Below are positions 31,756-61,156 of a stretch of DNA of 64,000 nucleotides, in pieces. The notes under the pieces were generated by a model. It made no database searches. It was not told where the DNA came from and was given only the letters and a program-made list of their open reading frames with translations. Position 1 is the stretch's first letter. Each line of letters starts with the position of its first letter. The translations under genes and the position numbers were made by a program. The DNA comes from Eubacteriales bacterium (lineage in GTDB: Bacteria; Bacillota; Clostridia; Oscillospirales; CAG-382), in assembly GCA_028705495.1 (NCBI GenBank), contig JAQWDK010000002.1:124001-188000 (forward strand), read 5' to 3'.

Positions 31756-32394
31756 TTAATTTTCTCCAGTTTCGATTTTTATAGTTTCTATAAGTTTGAT
31801 ATCTTTAGGATGAATTCCTGTTTCAAGATAAACTATCTCTTGGATTTGTGCTACCTTTGCCTCTTTAAGTTCTTCGGAGGACTTGACAATAATGTTACAT
31901 TTATCACCGGAAAGAACTGCGAGTACATTTTCAATACCTTTAGCTTTAATAAGAGCTTCGATATTCACTTCTTTTGTCATTTCTTTAGCAAGGGCTTGAA
32001 GGTCAGCAAGAGCCTCATCTTTTGTGTCGGGTAACACATCAGGGCTGTCAATTATTGATTGAAGCACACTCATTGCTTCTTCTCTTACGCTCTCGCGTGT
32101 CATTGCCGTAACCGTAAAGTAATCCTGGTTATCGACATTCTTATCAATTCCGCTTACATCTCCGTTTGCAAGCACTGACTGTCCAAGTGAGCGACGGCTT
32201 TCTTCAGCCATAGCATCCTTAGCTTGGTCGATGTTATTGCTTATTACCGCTACCGATACCACTACCGCGCCAAGCAGAAGTATACTTCCGCATGCTACGG
32301 CAATTTTATTGTTCAAGAGACTCTTGTAATCAAATTCCTTGATTTTGGTAGCGATTTTTTTTACTCCGTTGCGAGTTTTCTCAAGCAAGTTCAT
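31756..32394 (-). CDS. spoIIIAH: Stage III sporulation protein AH
   Basis: A 212-residue mother-cell membrane protein whose outer domain meets SpoIIQ across the septum to form the feeding-tube channel. A cytosolic N-terminus, one membrane helix (about residues 32-52), then a ring-building domain ending LKEAKVAQIQEIVYLETG and a short tail. It is the last gene of spoIIIA, with a terminator beyond it. Confidence 0.94.
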   Translation of the reverse strand: MNLLEKTRNGVKKIATKIKEFDYKSLLNNKIAVACGSILLLGAVVVSVAVISNNIDQAKDAMAEESRRSLGQSVLANGDVSGIDKNVDNQDYFTVTAMTRESVREEAMSVLQSIIDSPDVLPDTKDEALADLQALAKEMTKEVNIEALIKAKGIENVLAVLSGDKCNIIVKSSEELKEAKVAQIQEIVYLETGIHPKDIKLIETIKIETGEN

Positions 32395-32448
32395 AAATTC
32401 TCCATTCTGCCGCGTCGCGGTCGTTTATTTGTTCCTATATCATTTATA

Positions 32449-32931
32449 TTAGGATGTAACATATATATATTCTTCAGATATACCGAAAAGTACAGATAAA
32501 AGTGTTTTTATTCTACCAGCTGCCGAAGCATCGCCCTCATATACCACCGCAACGCCTGAAATCTTGGGTGTATATTCGCAAATTATTATTGGGCTTTGCT
32601 TGCCATCGGTCGTTATTATGACAACCTCCTTCTCTACATCACGCGCATCTCCATCATTTTTTAACTTTTGGTTGCTTGCATACAAATAGCTGTAACCGTC
32701 AGAAAGCGTTATCATAATCTGGCTACTTTTTACACCTCCGATCTGGTTTATAAGCGCTCTCGCCTGTTTCTCAGCATCTGCCGCATAAGCTTCTGAACTT
32801 GACGGCGTTGCAGTCGCCATTTGTTTCGCGGAATTGTCCGGCCATATCAGAAGCAGCACACCTGCCACCAACGCAAGAATGATAAAGCCTATACCTTTAA
32901 AGCCCGACAGCTTTTTTATAAGATTATCCAA
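32449..32931 (-). CDS. spoIIIAG: Stage III sporulation protein AG
   Basis: A 160-residue mother-cell protein that forms the large SpoIIIAG ring. One N-terminal membrane helix (GFIILALVAGVLLLIWP), then the ring-building motif region (ALINQIGGVKSSQIMITLSD, IKTLLSVLFGISEEYIYV). The start is TTG at 32931 with GGAGGAG upstream, overlapping the end of spoIIIAF by 8 nt. Confidence 0.93.
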   Translation of the reverse strand: MDNLIKKLSGFKGIGFIILALVAGVLLLIWPDNSAKQMATATPSSSEAYAADAEKQARALINQIGGVKSSQIMITLSDGYSYLYASNQKLKNDGDARDVEKEVVIITTDGKQSPIIICEYTPKISGVAVVYEGDASAAGRIKTLLSVLFGISEEYIYVTS

Positions 32932-33391
32932 CCTCTTCTCCTCCCGCAGCTACATTAATCTCCACCCCAAGCAGAGCGGAAAGATAATTTTTAATTTCAT
33001 CAGCTTTATTCGAATCTTCTGTTTTCAATGTGATATCAATTTTTTCAGCCGATATACCGTCTTCGGTGTTCACAAACACAACTTCGATATTAACAGGTGT
33101 CACATTGAAACGTTTTAATATCGCATCATTAACGGCTTCAATCACCCTTTCTTTACTGAGCTCGAGTATTAAACCTTCACTCCCCGATGTTTCCAATATA
33201 CTTTCGTTATATGTATATGTTTCAAAATTCGTAGCAAGCCCTAAAAGTCCTTTCAACGGCATTAAAATTATTAATATGCAAATAAGTGAAACAATGTATT
33301 TAACATACTTCTCAAATGTGCCGCTCGCTATCATCGAAAGCACCGTTCCAATAACGGAAGCAACTACAAGCGACATAAAATAATCTCTCAT
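32924..33391 (-). CDS. spoIIIAF: Stage III sporulation protein AF
   Basis: A 155-residue protein with two N-terminal membrane helices (VVASVIGTVLSMIAS; YIVSLICILIILMPL) and a ring-building-type soluble domain ending in NYLSALLGVEINV. It is part of the SpoIIIA complex that links mother cell and forespore during engulfment. It lies between AE and AG. Confidence 0.92.
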   Translation of the reverse strand: MRDYFMSLVVASVIGTVLSMIASGTFEKYVKYIVSLICILIILMPLKGLLGLATNFETYTYNESILETSGSEGLILELSKERVIEAVNDAILKRFNVTPVNIEVVFVNTEDGISAEKIDITLKTEDSNKADEIKNYLSALLGVEINVAAGGEEVG

Positions 33392-33405
33392 TTTGCAATC
33401 ATTCC

Positions 33406-34515
33406 TTATATTTGACCTGAGTTAGTGTTTAAGAATACTGCCACAGCAATAAAAAATACAACTGAAGCCCCAGCAATAATCGCAAGAAGTACACCGAAAA
33501 GGCTGTTGACCTCGTATAAAAGCCTGCTTTCCCGTTCAAGCCCTAATATGCGGCCGAGCATACCCGCAAGAAGTATCGAGAGTTTCGCCGTTACAACAAA
33601 TATAAGTGGAGGAACCGCAATTGACAGCATCGCTATGATCCCCGCCACACCCGTAGTTGCTTTGATAACCCCGACACTCGTATAAACGCTTTTGGCTGAT
33701 TCGCCGATGATACCGCCTATGACCGGTATAAAAACTCCCGATGCAAATTTTGCTGCTCTCATCGCTTGAGAATCGGCTGCTGCTGCTATTGTGGTTTGGA
33801 AATACAGCACAAAAGACAGCATCGCGAATAAAAATGCAAGTATCGTCGTAACGCTATTTCTTATTAGCGACGAGAGTGAACCGAGCTGTATGCAAGAAGG
33901 AAGAGCCGAAACAATGCAAAGGGCAAAGCAGACGGTCAGAAACGGCATGAGCAGCTTGCTGGCAACTGTTTCTATCAAGGTTAAAAAAATAGAGAGAGAC
34001 GACCAGCTTGCCGCAGCAGCTGCGGGATTTCCTCCGAGGGTGTATAGCGTTGTGGTAATAGGAAGATACGAGAGCATGAAGGAGGATATTGTGTTGAGCG
34101 CGACAATTGTCACCTCAAAAACTGTTTTTGCTGTGGTAAAAAGTGCTGCCGACAGCACCAGTATACTTATGTATTCGTATGTGTTAGTAAGAACCGGGTT
34201 TTCACCCTTTAGCCCAGATAACAAAGACGCTGCTATCAATATGCCAGCAAGCACTGAAAAACTGCGAAAGACGCTTGAAAAAGATTTTGTCAGCGAATCC
34301 GTGATTATTTCCAACAGTTTTGAAAATATATTGACCTGCTTGTTACCATTTTGTTCTTCATCATCAACATAATCACCGTAGCTCACATCATCAATTTTTT
34401 CAGCGATTGAATTTGTCAGCTCGTCCTCAAACGCTGATGCAGTTATTGGTAAAGAAAAAAGTATTAAAAAACACAGTAGTATTGACTTTATCAAACCTCT
34501 ATTTTTTATATTCAT
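33406..34515 (-). CDS. spoIIIAE: Stage III sporulation protein AE
   Basis: A 369-residue polytopic protein with an N-terminal signal-like helix ending ITASAFEDE and about seven membrane helices. It is one of the most conserved SpoIIIA membrane subunits and probably forms the channel base with AD and AC. SYLPITTTLYTLGGNPAAAA and KFASGVFIPVIGGIIGES are typical family segments. Confidence 0.93.
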   Translation of the reverse strand: MNIKNRGLIKSILLCFLILFSLPITASAFEDELTNSIAEKIDDVSYGDYVDDEEQNGNKQVNIFSKLLEIITDSLTKSFSSVFRSFSVLAGILIAASLLSGLKGENPVLTNTYEYISILVLSAALFTTAKTVFEVTIVALNTISSFMLSYLPITTTLYTLGGNPAAAAASWSSLSIFLTLIETVASKLLMPFLTVCFALCIVSALPSCIQLGSLSSLIRNSVTTILAFLFAMLSFVLYFQTTIAAAADSQAMRAAKFASGVFIPVIGGIIGESAKSVYTSVGVIKATTGVAGIIAMLSIAVPPLIFVVTAKLSILLAGMLGRILGLERESRLLYEVNSLFGVLLAIIAGASVVFFIAVAVFLNTNSGQI

Positions 34516-34520
34516 CTTAT

Positions 34521-34907
34521 TTATACCAATCCGTCAATTGAGTTGACTATTTGTTGCAACAAAGGGAGTGACAGGAGCAAAATGCCTATTTTCCCACCAA
34601 GCTCCACTTTTACGGCAATCGAATTTTCTCCGCAATCTCTGCATATCTCGGCACAAACTCTACTGCACAAAGCGATCCCGAGCGCTTTCATCATAATGCC
34701 GAGATAGCCACCCATACCGTATGAATTAGCGAGCGCTTTCGTAAAATCGAGCACCGGTAAAGCAAGTCGCAATAGCACCGCAAGTAAAGCGATAGTCGCT
34801 GCAATCGCAAGCCCCGGTGCGAGTTCTTCACGCAGTCGGCGTACTGTTATTACAATAATACTAATACCGACAGCCGCAAAACTAATAGTGACAGCGTCCA
34901 TTGTCAA
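34521..34907 (-). CDS. spoIIIAD: Stage III sporulation protein AD
   Basis: A 128-residue protein with four predicted membrane helices (VTISFAAVGISIIVIT, LAIAATIALLAVLL). The middle segment YLGIMMKALGIALCSRVCAE is characteristic. Its start overlaps the spoIIIAC stop (ATGA at 34904-34907), which indicates coupled translation. Confidence 0.93.
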   Translation of the reverse strand: MTMDAVTISFAAVGISIIVITVRRLREELAPGLAIAATIALLAVLLRLALPVLDFTKALANSYGMGGYLGIMMKALGIALCSRVCAEICRDCGENSIAVKVELGGKIGILLLSLPLLQQIVNSIDGLV

Positions 34908-35098
34908 AGACCGAAGATGTTGCGAATTGTCGAGAAAAGGTTGTCAATTTCGGCAATCAACAGTAGCGCGACTATTATGACACCTGCTAAGCTGACGAAA
35001 GTCGCTTGCTCGTCCCTTCCCGATTTATGCAGTATTTGATAAGCTACACTTACAAGCAGGCCTATACCAGCGATTTTTAAGAGAAGTGCTATATTCAA
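34904..35098 (-). CDS. spoIIIAC: Stage III sporulation protein AC
   Basis: A 64-residue protein with two membrane helices (LLLKIAGIGLLVSVAYQIL; FVSLAGVIIVALLLIAEI). The start is a TTG at 35098, 6 nt after AAAGGGA, giving exactly the family length; a longer open frame upstream overlaps spoIIIAB. HKSGRDEQA in the loop is a hallmark of AC. Confidence 0.94.
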   Translation of the reverse strand: MNIALLLKIAGIGLLVSVAYQILHKSGRDEQATFVSLAGVIIVALLLIAEIDNLFSTIRNIFGL

Positions 35099-35129
35099 TG
35101 ATATTCCCTTTCTTTCATATAATGCAGTT

Positions 35130-35621
35130 TTACAGAAGAAGTATCGAAATAACAACACCGATAAGCAGCGAAACCGATTTATAGACCTTCTGTTTTCCTT
35201 CAAGTGTTCTTCTCTGTTCTTTGAGGCAATCCTCAAGCACCTTTTCGAGATAGACAAGCTGTTCAATCTGTGTTTTCAAATCGCAACGGCCTAACTCTGC
35301 GCCGACGCCGAGAGCTGAAACCTCAGCATCCTTTGGCAGAAGAAGAAGTTTAACAGCCTTTTGCCAGCGTTTTGCATAATCTTCTGTCGACACAGGGTTG
35401 TTGATACAAGAGAGAAAACCACATTCGTTAAGAACATTGTCCTCATAACCTCCGAATATTTGTGAAAGTGGAATTCTTGTTGCTAAAATCGAACTTCTGA
35501 TATGTACCACAAGCTTACCCAGTGCATAAATTCTGTCGCATATCACTTTTTCGGACCGAGATGCAACCACTCCGAGGAAGAAGAATGCACAGCACAGCAT
35601 TACTGCTCCTACAAGCTCCAT
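35130..35621 (-). CDS. spoIIIAB: Stage III sporulation protein AB
   Basis: A 163-residue protein with membrane helices at both ends and a helical domain between them. The fold is related to GspF of type II secretion. VGVVAS-like GVVASRSEKVICDRI, LGAELGRCDLKTQIEQL and the C-terminal SLLIGVVISILLL are as expected. It starts 4 nt after spoIIIAA. Confidence 0.92.
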   Translation of the reverse strand: MELVGAVMLCCAFFFLGVVASRSEKVICDRIYALGKLVVHIRSSILATRIPLSQIFGGYEDNVLNECGFLSCINNPVSTEDYAKRWQKAVKLLLLPKDAEVSALGVGAELGRCDLKTQIEQLVYLEKVLEDCLKEQRRTLEGKQKVYKSVSLLIGVVISILLL

Positions 35622-53993: not shown

Positions 53994-55454
53994 TTATGAC
54001 ATCTGTGAAGCGAGGAGAGTGTCGATACTGCTTTCTGTACAGAAAACAATAACATAGTCCGCGCCGGTTTTGGTCTTGTTGTGCGTCAAGTCAACTTTTC
54101 TCGGTGTGAGCGAATTCATTGTGAAATAAATCGTCGTTGAGAATTTCTCAGCAAGCATATTGTAGATAGGTGTTGCCGACTCATCACGATAGATAACAGC
54201 ACTCGGATAACCTGCTTTTGAAGTCTTTATTTCACGTCTACTTGAAAGAGCGTTCGCAGCCTTATTGGTTACGTTAAAGGTGAAATCATCGGGACCGTTA
54301 TAAAAATCACCAGTCTGGAAAGTATAACTGAATTTCGGTTCTAAAACAGTGAAGGTGTCTCTTGCAGTTGTTCTGTCAAGATAGGTATATCCTGCAAGGT
54401 CTCCGCCCATAACATCTTTTGTGACTATATTGAAGTCTGAAAGAGGACGCGGCGAGGAAACAGGATAATCCTCAGCAATAACTTTCAAAAGTTCTTCATA
54501 AGCGAAATAAGCTGCGTAATCAGACCAGTTGGAATATGTTCTGCTGAAAAGGTTGTATCCGTCATCTTTATGCGCTTGGAGTATAGGAAGCATATCGATA
54601 ACTTTTGTCTTAATATCGGCATCATCTCTGAATGCTTTTATAAGTTGCTGATATCTTGTTGTGTTGGTATCAGTCTTCATATCTTCGGGCACAAGTTCCG
54701 GGTAAAGCGTGATTGCGTTCGGTATCATAACATAAATTACTTCAACGGGTGTGTAATCCTGGCGTACGATATCGCGAAGCATTTCAAGATACTCAAGGTC
54801 CGTCATACCATCAGGCTTTTTAACCCCTGTTTGAAGTAATGCGAGGTCAGCGATTCTCTTTTCCTGGATAGATGTGTAGTTGTCCTTAAGCATCGTCTGG
54901 AATGCTTTAATTTCAGTTGTGCTCAGTACGTTTTCACCATTGTATTCTTTATAGGACTTATTCAGGAAGAGCTGGGAATTCAGACCAACCATAACATCAA
55001 GACCGTCAGGACGCTGAGAAACAGTTGCTTTGTAATCAGCATAGAAGATTCTTGCTGTGCTCTCTTCTTTGTCCTCGACTTTAGCTGTCATTTCAAGTCT
55101 GTTGCTTCCGGAAGTCGCGAGAGTAACCTCAGTTATAAAGTATCCGCCGACGCTTTGAACGCTGACAGGTTCTTTTCCCTTCGTTATTGTTACAACAGCT
55201 CCATCTTCGCATGTTCCGGCAATAACAACGCGGTCAGCTGTAACATTGACTATTTGGGTATATTTTGGTCTTTCTGTAAAACCGGGTTCTGTTGATTCCT
55301 CTATCTGAGAAGTCGGTGCTTCCGAAACCTCTTTGGAATTGTTCAAATCCGGGAAACTCTCGATATCGAGCGGCGGTATTGAGACGCACGATGTAATCGT
55401 GAGTGCAGTCAATGCGAGTAGGAGCATTGTCGCAATAATTTTTTGTACTTTCAT
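53994..55454 (-). CDS. DHHW/AlgX-like SGNH-type lipoprotein
   Basis: A 486-residue predicted lipoprotein (signal peptide with lipobox TITSCV, Cys about residue 23). An acidic Ser/Thr-rich linker and a short Ig-like region (YTQIVNVTADRVVIAGTCED) come first. Then comes a domain resembling the AlgJ/AlgX/DHHW polysaccharide acetylation family: MVGLNSQLFLNKSY, VIYVMIPNAITLYPELVPE, and YSNWSDYAAYFAYEELLKVI in place of the usual DxHW. A membrane O-acyltransferase partner is not adjacent. The altered DxHW raises doubt about catalysis. Role: probably cell-surface glycan binding or modification. Confidence 0.7.
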   Translation of the reverse strand: MKVQKIIATMLLLALTALTITSCVSIPPLDIESFPDLNNSKEVSEAPTSQIEESTEPGFTERPKYTQIVNVTADRVVIAGTCEDGAVVTITKGKEPVSVQSVGGYFITEVTLATSGSNRLEMTAKVEDKEESTARIFYADYKATVSQRPDGLDVMVGLNSQLFLNKSYKEYNGENVLSTTEIKAFQTMLKDNYTSIQEKRIADLALLQTGVKKPDGMTDLEYLEMLRDIVRQDYTPVEVIYVMIPNAITLYPELVPEDMKTDTNTTRYQQLIKAFRDDADIKTKVIDMLPILQAHKDDGYNLFSRTYSNWSDYAAYFAYEELLKVIAEDYPVSSPRPLSDFNIVTKDVMGGDLAGYTYLDRTTARDTFTVLEPKFSYTFQTGDFYNGPDDFTFNVTNKAANALSSRREIKTSKAGYPSAVIYRDESATPIYNMLAEKFSTTIYFTMNSLTPRKVDLTHNKTKTGADYVIVFCTESSIDTLLASQMS

Positions 55455-55485: not shown

Positions 55486-57570
55486 TTATTCAGAATCAGC
55501 GGTATTCTTTGATTCGGCTATGATTTTTTGTGCAACCGGTGCGGGAGCTTCTTCATATCTTGTAAAATCAAAAGAATAAGTTCCTCTGCCCTGAGTAATT
55601 GCTCTGAGCTGCACCGAATATGTTCCCATCTCCGAAGAGGGAATTTCCGCTTCTACAACCGTATAACCTTTTTTTGCGCTCTGATCCGTACCAAGGATAC
55701 GTCCTCTGCGCTTATTTATATCACCGATTATGTCGCCCATCATGGCGTCGGGGATATTAACTCTTAATGTGCCAATCGGTTCAAGTAGGGTAGGATTACC
55801 CTGTTTCATACCTTCTTTAAACGCAAGGTTGGCAGCTAATTTAAAGGACATTTCAGATGAGTCGACATCGTGGTATGAACCATCAAAGAGATTTGCTTTA
55901 ACCTTAATAACAGGATAACCTGCAAGCACACCCTTCGCCATCGATTCTTGAAGTCCTTTCTCAACCGCTGGATGGAAATTCTTCGGGACAGATCCTCCGA
56001 ATATTGTTTCGGTAAACTCAAGTCCTTCTTCTTCTCCCGGCGAGAATTCAATTTTTACATGACCGTATTGACCGTGACCGCCTGATTGTTTCTTATGTTT
56101 TCCTTCAACAGAGACTTTCTTTTTGATGGTCTCTCTGTAAGGAACTTTAGCTGGCTCAAGATCAACTGATACACCGAACCTGTTTTTCAGCTTTGATGTC
56201 ATTACATCAAGTTGAGTTTCTCCAAGGCCTATAAGACAAATTTGTTTTGTCTCGGCATTGTTTTCGTATTTTATAGTATTGTCTTCATCAAGAAGTTTAC
56301 TTATACCCGTGGAAATCTTATCCTCATCACCTTTAGCTTTAGGGACAATGGCAAGACGAAGATAAGGAGTAGGAAATTCGATTTTAGAATATGGCAGTGC
56401 GATTTCACCTGCTGTCAAAGTATCGTTTGTGTTTGTGTTAAGCAGTTTTGAGGTGATACCGATATCGCCGCAACAAAGTTCATCAACATCCGTTTGCTTT
56501 GATCCTCTTGCAGTTGATATTTTCGCAAACTTTTCACTTTGGCCTGTTGTAAGATTTTGCAAAATGGTATCCTTCTTAAGTGTACCATTCATAACTTTAA
56601 AATATGACATCTTACCGACAAATGGGTCGGCGACTGTTTTGAAAACGAATATTGCAGGTTCACCGTCAGGATTCATCTTAACTTCAACAGTTTCACCGTT
56701 TTCTTTAACAACAGTTTCAATCCCCTTATCGGAAGGTGAGCAAAAAGATGTTGTAATGCCATCAAGAAGACTTCTAATCCCCATAAGACCCATCGCAGAG
56801 CCACAGAAAACCGGACTGATTAGTCCATCAATGAAACCTTTATGTAATGCCTTTACGGTTTCGTCATGAGTGAATGATTCACCTGCAAAGAACTTTTCCA
56901 TAAGCTCATCGCTTGTTTCAGCGAGTGCTTCGGCTAGTGCATTAGAATACTCTGAAAGCTTATCGGTAAAACTGCTCGGGACTGCAATTTCTTTAAGTCC
57001 ATCTTTTTCGTCAGTTGAATAGGCTTTTTCAGTGATTAAGCTATAAAAGCCAATAAGTTTTTCATGTTCGTGAATTGGAACAAACACAGGACAAACGCTC
57101 GTTCCAAACTGGTTTTGAAGGCTTGCAAATGCTTTATCAAAGTTGGAGTTTTCGTCTTCCATTTTATTGATGAAAAACGCTTTCGGAACAACCCTGTCGC
57201 CCGTTGCTGCATCCCATGCAAGCTCTGTACCGGCCTTACAGCCCGATTTGCCGCTGATTACTATAATTGCACTATCAGCAACTCGTAAAGTTTGATTGAC
57301 TTCCCCAACGAAATCAAAAAATCCAGGTGCATCAAGCAAATTGATTTTTATATCATTCCACTCAACATATGCGAGTGATGTAGAAATTGATATAGTACGC
57401 TTTCTTTCTTCGGGATCAAAATCGCTGACTGTTGTTCCGTCACTTGATTTCCCGAGTCTGTCGATCGCCTTGGAGAGAAAGAGCATTGCTTCAGTGAGAG
57501 AGGTCTTTCCGTCTCCGCCATGTCCAATCAAAGCGACGTTTCTAATCTGACCGGTTTGATATTTTGCCAT
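55486..57570 (-). CDS. Elongation factor G-like GTPase (FusA2 type)
   Basis: A 694-residue paralogue of EF-G with full domain order: G domain, domains II and III, domain IV (GGHGQYGHVKIEF, GYPVIKVKANLFDGSYHDVD) and V (RRGRILGTD). G1 is GHGGDGKTS. G3 reads DAPGFFDF, where EF-G has DxPGH, so the catalytic His is replaced by Phe. G4 reads NKME where NKMD is standard. These changes fit the EF-G-like (FusA2) group rather than housekeeping EF-G. Role unknown; translation under stress or ribosome recycling are possibilities. The gene is single, with a weak promoter at 57621-57649. Confidence 0.88.
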   Translation of the reverse strand: MAKYQTGQIRNVALIGHGGDGKTSLTEAMLFLSKAIDRLGKSSDGTTVSDFDPEERKRTISISTSLAYVEWNDIKINLLDAPGFFDFVGEVNQTLRVADSAIIVISGKSGCKAGTELAWDAATGDRVVPKAFFINKMEDENSNFDKAFASLQNQFGTSVCPVFVPIHEHEKLIGFYSLITEKAYSTDEKDGLKEIAVPSSFTDKLSEYSNALAEALAETSDELMEKFFAGESFTHDETVKALHKGFIDGLISPVFCGSAMGLMGIRSLLDGITTSFCSPSDKGIETVVKENGETVEVKMNPDGEPAIFVFKTVADPFVGKMSYFKVMNGTLKKDTILQNLTTGQSEKFAKISTARGSKQTDVDELCCGDIGITSKLLNTNTNDTLTAGEIALPYSKIEFPTPYLRLAIVPKAKGDEDKISTGISKLLDEDNTIKYENNAETKQICLIGLGETQLDVMTSKLKNRFGVSVDLEPAKVPYRETIKKKVSVEGKHKKQSGGHGQYGHVKIEFSPGEEEGLEFTETIFGGSVPKNFHPAVEKGLQESMAKGVLAGYPVIKVKANLFDGSYHDVDSSEMSFKLAANLAFKEGMKQGNPTLLEPIGTLRVNIPDAMMGDIIGDINKRRGRILGTDQSAKKGYTVVEAEIPSSEMGTYSVQLRAITQGRGTYSFDFTRYEEAPAPVAQKIIAESKNTADSE

Positions 57571-57787: not shown

Positions 57788-60373
57788 CTACGAAATATAA
57801 GTGATTACACCGAGTGAGCCAAGCCATAACAGCTGGAATAGCAGAGCGTAGACTGAGGTGAGATATCCGGCAGAACCAGTCAATATAAGGAATGCCGCTA
57901 TACCTAACGAGAGAATCATACTTGCCATCGTTATTACAATGTTAGATTTTATCGAGTGTCTTGTCTTATCACAAAGAATAAACATCCTCAAGAAGGTGTG
58001 AAGTGAACCGTTTGTTGCAATGGCAGAGGAAATCGATTCAGCTTTACCAAGTATGTCTTCAGGTTTATCTGCCTTTAGAATTGCAATAGGGCATTTCTTA
58101 AATTTAATGTTGCGTGTTAAAAGCTCGTTGCTTATATTTGGATCAAGAGTTTTTATTCCTACGCACATACCGGCTTTATACATATCTTTTAGGAGATAGT
58201 CAAACTTGGAATTGATTCTATAACGAAGGTTTAATTTCGCTACAAGGTCGTCGTTTATTCCTAAATACATTATCGAACCGTTTCCGGATTCAAATTCGTT
58301 ATCTCCAGCTTCGTAGGGTATCTCAAACATATAGTTGCGCATAAAAGAGCGTTTGCCTATGTAGATATCCTTGCCTCCACTTGATACAACGAGCCCGTCA
58401 GAAACGCATTCAATAAGTCTGCAGCTCATGGATGTCATGTTTTCACTATCAACGACTACTTTACTAAGCACTTCAGCGAGAGGTCCGCCAAGTTTTTCGA
58501 AAATTCCAGCTAAATCTTGAATAACCTTGTCGATCCTATAATCGCCATATGTTTTAAGGCTTGTGAGCTTTATGTTCGACGATGGGAACACTTCGGTATC
58601 AGCAAATGATATTACAGCTGCTGAATCATACTCTTCGGTAAAAGAGTTTCCTATAAGAGCTGATTCACTTCGCCTTGCAATTTTATTTGCTTTGACTGTA
58701 GGGAGGACAGAGGCAAATATTGCACTCATTGGCATTGCAGTCGCAATAAGGGCAGAAGCAAATTTATATGAGTCAAAAATGCTGTAACTGCGCAGATAAG
58801 ATACAGCAAAAATCAAAACAGCGGCGATAACTACAATGAATATCTGCCATATCATTACATCGTCGCTTTTCGCTCTTGATGTAATCCTCTTGAAAAATCC
58901 GCTAATAAAATCTGTTTTCTTTACTGTATAGAGTGCGGAATCATCAAAAAGGTATTTGTAGAATTCATCAGCTTCTTTACTTGCTCCTACGAGAGATTCT
59001 GCAGCATATTTTGGTCTATCATCACTGATTATTTCAAAGCATTCCGCATCACGTTTACTTTGAATGAGTTTTGATAAGGCAACAAAAAACGCAGTCGCTG
59101 CACCGCCGAGATTGAACAAGCTGAGGGCGGATGATGTAGGATCGGTAAAAATACAGTAGATTGTATGTATAACTGGAAGGAGTATAGATATAAATAAAAG
59201 GCTGTCAGAGGTTGGTGCTAATTTAAAGATGTCTCTTATACCTTTTTTTACGCTCCCAAGCATTGTTATTGCGATAAACAAGAGAAGCTGTAAGTCAACG
59301 AGTGCATAAAGCATCCCGTATCTTCCTTGTTTGAGGAAGATTGGATGGAGGGCAGAAGTTTTGGTAGCTGTTTCGAGGAAAAGTATTCCCAATGCAAAAA
59401 CAAAAACGATAGCTGTCTTTATTCCCCAGCCTTTAACTGCTTTGCGTAGTATCGCTTCAACTTCAGAATCTTGTTCGTGACTTTCGTATTCATATCCATC
59501 GTATTGGTCTTCTGTTGAATTCTCTATATCTATTTCGTCAGAAGTTGAATCTTTAATAACGCCACGGCGTTTCTTTTTATGTGAAACTTTATCGAATATT
59601 TCTTTGTCAGGTAGATTCTTGATATCGTCAGGAATATCGAACCCATCGTCGAGCATATTAAATGCAAGACGCAAATTTATATCGGTTGCATCAAGTGTTT
59701 CACCGCTCCCGCTTACCGCTTCTGATTCTGCAGTGTCATTTGTTGAAAGCTTTAATTGATCGGCTGCAGTCGTATCGTCACGAAAAGCAGAGATATCACT
59801 GCTTAAAATCCTCTCAGTGAGGTCAGCAAAATCATCTGATAAACCGGAAGTATCTTCACGCGAAGCTCTTGCGATTTCTTCAAGTAGCTCGTCGTCGCTT
59901 TCTTCGTTGATTTCACCAGATTCAAAAAGCATTGTCTGTTCATAGTTTTTATTTGATTCTGTATAAGGTTGTGAGTTTGAGAGGCGTGAGCTCACAACAC
60001 GATCGGGTTCATCATCGTTTACATATTTATAGAGTTCGCCGACCTTATCGGTCGAAAGATTTTTCTTACTTCCTGTTAAATAGCCGGTTAAATCTTTATC
60101 TTTTTTTATTTTTTTGGCGAAGTCGCGTACTAAAAGATCATTGTGATCAGGTTCAGCGGCGAAGACAATCTGTGGAATATCGGTGTCCGTTGTCAAAGAA
60201 TACGGTTCATCATTATTCACACTTACTTTGTCAACTGTGTCTGTAATTCTTGTTACCGCGAGAGCGTTTTCCGTTGTTTTCTGGGCTTCCTCCAGGATGT
60301 CCTCGATGTTCTTTAGTGTCCGGTTGACAGCGGTATTTTCGTCGCTGAGTTTCTTTTGTTCCTTAATCGACAC
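57788..60373 (-). CDS. Degenerate P-type ATPase-like membrane protein with a long acidic N-terminus
   Basis: An 861-residue protein. Residues 1-315 are acidic, low-complexity and probably disordered, with a KKKRR cluster near 270. Four membrane helices follow (about 320-440), then two more (about 510-562), a soluble region (565-800) and two C-terminal helices, the layout of a P1B-type pump. The line MPMSAIFASVLPTVKANKIARR matches the CPC-x-TP...G region of pumps, and FADTEVFP sits where DKTGTLT belongs: the Asp is kept and KTGT is lost. VGIKTLDPN replaces the TGD motif. Ion transport is therefore unlikely. GTG at 60373 overlaps the rlmB end region and follows GGAG by 9 nt. Confidence 0.75.
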   Translation of the reverse strand: MSIKEQKKLSDENTAVNRTLKNIEDILEEAQKTTENALAVTRITDTVDKVSVNNDEPYSLTTDTDIPQIVFAAEPDHNDLLVRDFAKKIKKDKDLTGYLTGSKKNLSTDKVGELYKYVNDDEPDRVVSSRLSNSQPYTESNKNYEQTMLFESGEINEESDDELLEEIARASREDTSGLSDDFADLTERILSSDISAFRDDTTAADQLKLSTNDTAESEAVSGSGETLDATDINLRLAFNMLDDGFDIPDDIKNLPDKEIFDKVSHKKKRRGVIKDSTSDEIDIENSTEDQYDGYEYESHEQDSEVEAILRKAVKGWGIKTAIVFVFALGILFLETATKTSALHPIFLKQGRYGMLYALVDLQLLLFIAITMLGSVKKGIRDIFKLAPTSDSLLFISILLPVIHTIYCIFTDPTSSALSLFNLGGAATAFFVALSKLIQSKRDAECFEIISDDRPKYAAESLVGASKEADEFYKYLFDDSALYTVKKTDFISGFFKRITSRAKSDDVMIWQIFIVVIAAVLIFAVSYLRSYSIFDSYKFASALIATAMPMSAIFASVLPTVKANKIARRSESALIGNSFTEEYDSAAVISFADTEVFPSSNIKLTSLKTYGDYRIDKVIQDLAGIFEKLGGPLAEVLSKVVVDSENMTSMSCRLIECVSDGLVVSSGGKDIYIGKRSFMRNYMFEIPYEAGDNEFESGNGSIMYLGINDDLVAKLNLRYRINSKFDYLLKDMYKAGMCVGIKTLDPNISNELLTRNIKFKKCPIAILKADKPEDILGKAESISSAIATNGSLHTFLRMFILCDKTRHSIKSNIVITMASMILSLGIAAFLILTGSAGYLTSVYALLFQLLWLGSLGVITYIS

Positions 60374-60379
60374 CGTCAA

Positions 60380-61156
60380 TCACTCCGTTTCATTCTTCTG
60401 TTTTGCCGCTTCCATAAGTACGACTGCTGTCGCTGCTGAAACATTCAGAGAAGTTACCTTTCCGTACATTGGTATGGAAATAATAAAGTCGCTTCTTTCT
60501 TTTATAAGTCTTGATACGCCCTCGCCTTCACTGCCAAGAACAAAAGCAGAAGGTGAATCGAATTTTTCTTTGTAATAAGCCTTACCGCCCGCTTCGAGAG
60601 CGTATATCCAGATTCCCTTTTTCTTTAGTTCTTCGATTGCGGCTACAATATTCGACACTTTGGCGAACGCTATGTGTGCGACTGCTCCTGCGGATGCTTT
60701 CACGACTGTTGGGGTAATGCCCGAACCTCCGCGTTTGGGTATTATAATTCCGTGCACACCTGCGGCATCAGCTGTGCGAATTATTGCCCCGAGGTTATGA
60801 GGGTCATTTATCGAGTCGCATATAACAATAAAAGGCTTTTCACCTTTTTCTTTAGCTATTTCAAGAATGTGGTCAATATCAACATAATCGACTGCAGAAG
60901 CTGCTGCCGCGATACCCTGATGTATTACACCACAGGCCATCTCGTCAAGCTTTTTCTTACTCGCTTCAACTACTGGTATTGAACTGCTCCTCGCTTCGGC
61001 GACAATTTTAACTGCGCTACCGTCGCGTTTTCCGGACTGAATATATATTTTATCAACAGTCCTACCGCTTTTCAAGAGTTCTGCTACGGCATTTCTGCCG
61101 AATACAAGCCCCTTGTCTTCCGGTTCAGACTGATGATGATCTATTTCATTTTTCAA
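60380..61156 (-). CDS. rlmB: TrmH/RlmB-family rRNA 2'-O-methyltransferase
   Basis: A 258-residue SPOUT methyltransferase, probably acting on 23S rRNA in the RlmB manner. An N-terminal L30e-like substrate domain (VFGRNAVAELLKSGRTVDKI) is followed by the SPOUT core: NDPHNLGAIIRTADAAG, LGSEGEGVSRL and IPMYGKVTSLNVSAATAV (knot and SAM site). It is the first gene of a unit with the P-type ATPase-like gene 7 nt downstream. The exact methylation site is not proven by sequence. Confidence 0.9.
   Translation of the reverse strand: MKNEIDHHQSEPEDKGLVFGRNAVAELLKSGRTVDKIYIQSGKRDGSAVKIVAEARSSSIPVVEASKKKLDEMACGVIHQGIAAAASAVDYVDIDHILEIAKEKGEKPFIVICDSINDPHNLGAIIRTADAAGVHGIIIPKRGGSGITPTVVKASAGAVAHIAFAKVSNIVAAIEELKKKGIWIYALEAGGKAYYKEKFDSPSAFVLGSEGEGVSRLIKERSDFIISIPMYGKVTSLNVSAATAVVLMEAAKQKNETE

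Follow-up and report, generated by a model that had tools for sequence, protein, structure and literature searches.

P-type ATPases are textbook pumps. Degenerate versions of the fold have been described in eukaryotes. In TMEM94 (ERMA) of animals the phosphorylation motif DKTGT reads DKQGI, GDGVND is replaced by GSSANL, TGES is missing and the nucleotide pocket is inaccessible (PMC13322241; PMC12134183), and GC-beta of Plasmodium carries a degenerate P4-ATPase domain from which most of the signatures have been lost (PMC6592433). In the open-licence literature searched, no description was found of bacterial P-type pseudo-enzymes or of the pseudo-ATPase family analysed here, and a scaffold or sensor role for the P-type fold in bacteria is likewise undescribed there.

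The window (the whole 64,000-nucleotide stretch of DNA that was analysed) carries on its minus strand an ORF with its stop at 57788. Two candidate starts were read, GTG at 60373 (861 codons) and TTG at 60379 (863 codons), both preceded by the purine-rich stretch ACGGAGTGA; residue numbers refer to the 863-codon form. The gene abuts the stop of rlmB at 60380 with zero gap. It encodes a membrane protein of 861–863 residues that consists of an acidic disordered N-terminus and a P1B-type ATPase-like core. Hydropathy and the helices of an AlphaFold2 model place eight hydrophobic segments in the P1B order: four segments, a small A-domain remnant, two segments, the P/N domain and two further segments. 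The features of the locus are listed in Table 1.

Table 1. Features of the pseudo-ATPase locus, in window coordinates.
Feature	Position	Strand	Basis
rlmB-linked pseudo-P-type ATPase gene	57788..60379	-	intact ORF; one full-length homologue per genome across the order; core dN/dS 0.02-0.09
EF-G-like GTPase, downstream neighbour	55486..57570	-	Pfam EF-G domains; frequent, in only part of the loci
Stretch with GDGxND segment deleted, followed by last two helices	57949..58133	-	hhalign
TGD hinge counterpart IKTLDPNI, residues 742-749	58133..58156	-	column counts
N-domain glycine strand SDGLVVSSGGKDIYIG, residues 660-675	58355..58402	-	G662 104/107, G675 105/107
N-domain site of SEHPL, GGPLAE, residues 631-636	58472..58489	-	G 91, G 93, P 94, L 96 of 107
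Phosphorylation-loop site SFADTEVFP, residues 591-599	58583..58609	-	family signature D-x-[ED]-[VIL]-[FY]-P, column counts
M4 site of CPC, AMPMSA, residues 548-553	58721..58738	-	Pro 99/107; flanks variable
Shrunken A-domain remnant without TGE, residues 445-505	58865..59047	-	gap in P1B alignment; model
First four membrane helices MA, MB, M1, M2, residues 315-440	59060..59437	-	hydropathy, AlphaFold2, hhalign to P1B
Acidic disordered cytosolic N-terminus, residues 1-313	59441..60379	-	composition, FoldIndex
Second conserved linear motif LDATDINLRLAFNML, residues 229-243	59651..59695	-	conserved in the family around the window's genome
N-terminal linear motif NIEDILEEAQ, residues 24-33	60281..60310	-	local form of [FYI]S[LIV][DE][DE]ILxE[FYV]
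rlmB, SpoU-type 23S rRNA 2'-O-methyltransferase, upstream neighbour	60380..61156	-	Pfam SpoU_methylase 5.7e-44, SpoU_sub_bind 1.8e-18

Searches with the single sequence gave weak results. The Pfam profile E1-E2_ATPase scored 7.5 bits (E = 3.7) against a cut-off of 28.1 bits, NCBIfam TIGR01525 scored 32 bits (E = 6e-8), about a tenth of its cut-off of 346 bits, and LpCopA matched at E = 0.005. The window's own genome contains nine E1-E2_ATPase matches, all above the cut-off, and the pseudo-ATPase is not among them. Profile–profile comparison with an alignment of 47 homologues (A1) was decisive. With this alignment hhalign matched the P1B ATPases of the class at a probability of 99.95% (E = 1.1e-37), the 550 matched columns running from the first helix through to the last; the P2-type ATPases were matched at E = 3.6e-5, and the family profile found LpCopA at E = 3.5e-32. 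The AlphaFold2 model (pLDDT 90.5, pTM 0.84) had copper ATPases as its best structural matches, with a Foldseek E of 2e-16 for PDB entry 4bbj and a Z score of 23.5 (rmsd 8.0, 487 residues aligned) for LpCopA, PDB entry 3rfu. The P-type fold and P1B membrane topology proposed in the first-pass annotation are borne out by the profile–profile match and the CopA score, and the structure prediction and structural search that it called for likewise returned copper ATPases as the best matches. Of the profile searches that it proposed, E1-E2_ATPase stayed below its cut-off, and the P-type relationship, the absence of which would have counted against the proposal, was found through TIGR01525 and profile–profile comparison. 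In a tree, one long and fully supported branch separates the pseudo-ATPase family from all true P-type ATPases.

The catalytic motifs were followed through 107 distinct homologue sequences, to which all column counts refer. DKTGT is absent from the window protein and from every member of the order (Oscillospirales in GTDB) that was examined, and the string GDGxND is absent from every order member examined; TGE is absent from the window protein, with isolated TGEA strings in only two order sequences. In the ungapped alignment DKTGT lies over A-D-T-E-V, so that the phospho-Asp column holds Ala in the window protein and D594 falls on the Lys column. The first-pass annotation, which read DKTGT as DTEVF, was right about the loss and out of register in the reading. 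Across the family the phospho-Asp column is occupied by Ala in 40 sequences, Asp in 37 and other residues in 30; the next column, D594, is kept in 102 and E/D596 in 104, followed by V/I/L, F/Y and P, and this D-x-E motif recurs across the order. At the CPC position the proline alone is conserved, the Cys ligands are lost and the other metal-site residues are variable too, in agreement with the earlier statement that the metal site is absent. Most of the sequences have GGPL in place of SEHPL, and the ATP-binding Glu and His are lost. The A domain appears as a long gap in the P1B alignment, with the TGE region inside the gap, and as two strands in the model. The template stretch that includes GDGIND is unmatched by hhalign, which fits the claim that GDGxND is unrecognisable; the same claim made for TGD was mistaken, as the counterpart T-x-D-P-N-I (T744 97, D746 105, P747 95 and N748 93 of 107) retains the Asp, the Gly not being kept. 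The CxxC metal-binding domain is lost relative to CopA. Besides the motif sites, G662, G675, Y720 and W852 are near-invariant. D-x-[ED]-[VIL]-[FY]-P and T-x-D-P-N-I are replacement signatures of the whole order.

In the alignment and the 107-sequence counts DKTGT, TGE, CPC, SEHPL and GDGxND are gone, and the pumping chemistry has been lost, as had been proposed. The motif loss is common to the whole order and is therefore ancient. By hhalign, the model and the CopA match the protein has the fold and membrane layout of the P1B subfamily; the five signature motifs are missing and both curated scores fall below their cut-offs. By this membership test it is a member of a P1B-derived pseudo-enzyme family and not a P1B ATPase. 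Homology to P-type ATPases, their fold and descent from P1B-like ATPases are taken as established, and the dead-enzyme part of the explanation, an ancient pseudo-ATPase, is well supported. From the motif losses we infer that enzymatic activity is probably absent.

Two observations speak against a pseudo-enzyme: Asp stands in the phospho-Asp column of the 37 sequences mentioned, and the conservation of D594, E596 and D746 could serve other chemistry. The headpiece might be an altered enzyme, no longer part of a pump, which uses D594-x-E596 and D746 for HAD-type chemistry as a phosphatase or phosphotransferase. The acidic pair stands at the place of the HAD D-x-D, in the model residue 593 is the last of strand beta-1, and D594, E/D596, T744 and D746 are well kept by the counts given above. 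However, both the HAD Lys and the acid pair of GDGxND fall within the deleted segment, the Glu–His pair of the N domain is lost and, in the ungapped alignment, D594 occupies the Lys column and not that of the nucleophile. We regard this reading as unlikely, though deserving of consideration. A passive or regulated transporter, in which the membrane domain conducts an ion or small molecule and the headpiece acts as a gate, seems rather unlikely as well. All eight helices are retained, as is the M4 proline, and Mg2+ movement has been reported for the degenerate P-type fold of TMEM94/ERMA (PMC13322241) and disputed (PMC12134183), but the CPC ligands and the other metal-site residues are variable.

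In the order survey a match was found in 184 of 197 genomes (150 of 155 of high quality), nearly always as one copy, and in 57 of 60 sampled relatives within the order; most of the surveyed genomes are metagenome-assembled. Outside the order, about 143 genomes of the class and 147 further ones of the phylum gave no full-length match, and the best translated matches there are intact copper ATPases that cover only part of the profile. Five high-quality order genomes are without a match. In one (G206) the pseudo-ATPase gene begins after rlmB and is then cut by the contig end; the other four (G007, G239, G304 and G277) are also without an rlmB-grade match, having only weak SpoU-family matches in its place, and may represent co-loss of both genes or assembly gaps.

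The coupling to rlmB noted in the first-pass annotation recurs widely. Among 54 loci, which represent 22 families, 53 have rlmB directly upstream in the same orientation; in the remaining one the pseudo-ATPase gene lies 577 bases from the end of its contig. Of 80 further named records, 78 contain rlmB, and it is the sole invariant neighbour. Two genes downstream, the window encodes an AlgX/DHHW-like protein with a lipoprotein-like signal start (53994-55454), an arrangement seen in eight loci. From this linkage, and from the four high-quality genomes that apparently lack both genes, the protein could be read as an accessory subunit that acts through RlmB on the methylation of rRNA or on the traffic of ribosomes. 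Elsewhere in the class, though, rlmB is present without the pseudo-ATPase, RlmB works without such a partner and no physical link to RlmB is known; we consider this role improbable, and the linkage may be merely an old gene order. The genes that come after rlmB in those other members of the class are often one of NYN type (rae1/yacP-like) and one that is sigma-factor-like, the names having been assigned by eye. In one family of the class (f42; L312-L316) an intact CopA-type ATPase with CxxC, TGES, CPC, DKTGT, SEHP, TGDN and GDGIND lies directly behind rlmB in five of five genomes. The synteny fits, and suggests, common descent with the rlmB–copA slot of f42 as the ancestral state. A grouping of f42 with the order was not recovered in the P1B tree, the RlmB tree (both weakened by long branches) or the profile scores; since the gene trees do not put f42 beside the order, common descent is offered as a suggestion.

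The window also holds a stage III sporulation cluster (31756-35621; SpoIIIAH, AF, AE, AC/AD family and AB by Pfam), and the host may sporulate. A sporulation-only role for the pseudo-ATPase was considered and is unlikely: G230, G245, G258 and G282, which belong to a single genus, keep the gene and have no spoIIIAE match, and the four genomes without either gene of the rlmB pair have spoIIIAE.

The core of the gene is under purifying selection, with dN/dS of 0.02-0.09 between close pairs (only pairs with unsaturated dS were used, those with saturated dS being left out), so the pseudo-ATPase is functional. By its order-wide presence, its low dN/dS and the lack of a full-length match outside the order in the genomes searched, the loss is ancient and the protein under purifying selection, and the view that the protein has been repurposed rather than left to decay is upheld by these data and by the conserved new motifs. 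No homologue with an intact DKTGT, which might have indicated recent decay, was seen among those examined in the order. In one homologue (L049, genome G057) there is a single in-frame TGA between the first helices and the A-domain remnant, which could be an error, decay or recoding. Recent decay, a pseudogene or an assembly artefact, to which the lost motifs, the failure of Pfam recognition and this TGA might point, is ruled out for practical purposes by intact ORFs in almost all order genomes, the dN/dS values and the new conserved motifs.

The acidic disordered N-terminus that had been described was confirmed: residues 1-313 contain 75 D/E against 38 K/R, with a FoldIndex of -0.15 (predicted disordered), and nearly every homologue whose N-terminus is complete has an acidic tail. 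The peptide [FYI]S[LIV][DE][DE]ILxE[FYV] recurs near the N-terminus of homologues from many families. A profile of this tail motif was run against whole genomes and returned the pseudo-ATPase as its first match; the other good matches are few, and for a profile this short the E-values are rough. In 20 genomes significant matches were almost confined to the pseudo-ATPase, VanW proteins and one ABC-2 permease, and a widespread signal was thereby ruled out. The VanW/PG_binding_4 proteins with the N-terminal motif come from four genomes of family f13, one match being weak (E = 0.2), and the ABC-2 export permease, which has the motif near its N-terminus, from genome G281. The VanW/PG_binding_4 proteins at L244:1032-3104, L245:1896-4025, L261 and L268 share with the pseudo-ATPase tail an ISVDDILxEY-type peptide in their cytosolic N-terminus. 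The ABC-2 export permease at L220, a 441-residue open frame on the minus strand, has gained a charged extension at its N-terminus, which starts SDKFSIDDILAEI. A sortase (L235) with a weaker version of the motif (E = 0.015) was excluded from the count, and a MazG-like match in G045 was judged to be due to chance. As the motif-bearing VanW and ABC-2 proteins are envelope membrane proteins, a shared cytosolic organiser is suggested.

On balance we lean towards a P1B-descended pseudo-enzyme that serves as a scaffold anchored in the membrane, or as a receptor responding to a ligand, and docks a partner with its tail via the N-terminal peptide; the conserved N-terminal motif helps the case for this presumed role, docking and partner. 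The membrane domain with its eight helices is kept, as is the P/N headpiece, but a phosphorylation cycle would be impossible, since the phospho-Asp column varies freely, neither TGE nor GDGxND is left, other residues stand in for the Glu–His pair and the metal ligands have been lost. Strong selection has retained the single-copy gene directly behind rlmB in the whole order, and the long acidic tail would dock a cytosolic partner through the peptide [FYI]S[LIV][DE][DE]ILxE. The rebuilt headpiece, with its D-x-E loop facing T-x-D-P-N-I, may offer a second conserved binding or sensing surface. A more specific and tentative proposal is that of a membrane hub with a rebuilt pseudo-active site, the tail of which joins an organiser that also recruits VanW-type and ABC-2 proteins in some lineages. 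If this hub reading were true, the order would possess an envelope-organising system of its own, with a former copper pump as its origin.

A whole order that keeps a core gene without its pumping chemistry would show that the P-type fold can be repurposed in bacteria. The family would also provide a natural test for the TMEM94 debate, namely what job a P-type scaffold can do without catalysis, and the conserved tail peptide could be used as bait for a putative organiser protein in abundant and genetically little-studied gut clostridia. The order comprises gut and sediment clostridia.

Among known systems, the CopA copper ATPases share with the pseudo-ATPase the eight-helix and A/P/N layout, a full-length profile match and the best structural match, and in f42 the place behind rlmB, which the pseudo-ATPase fills in the window's order, is taken by an intact copA. 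In contrast to CopA, the pseudo-ATPase is without DKTGT, TGE, CPC, SEHPL, GDGxND and the CxxC domain, its A domain is shrunken and it carries an acidic tail of 300 residues. For the action of the tail, the envelope proteins that dock to GpsB may serve as a model by analogy: one adaptor binds a short N-terminal cytosolic motif of several envelope membrane proteins (PMC6335420). The GpsB motif is arginine-rich, SRxxR[RK] (PMC6335420), whereas that of the pseudo-ATPase is acidic–hydrophobic and its receptor putative. Closest in kind are TMEM94/ERMA and the P4 domain of Plasmodium GC-beta. TMEM94/ERMA, compared here by its published description, likewise combines a P-type architecture with broken motifs, but has ten helices and a disputed Mg2+ function, whereas the pseudo-ATPase is bacterial, derived from P1B and has lost even the GDGxND segment. 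The GC-beta domain is also a P-type ATPase domain that has lost the greater part of its signatures (PMC6592433), but it is fused to a guanylate cyclase, belongs to the P4 lineage and is found in a eukaryote.
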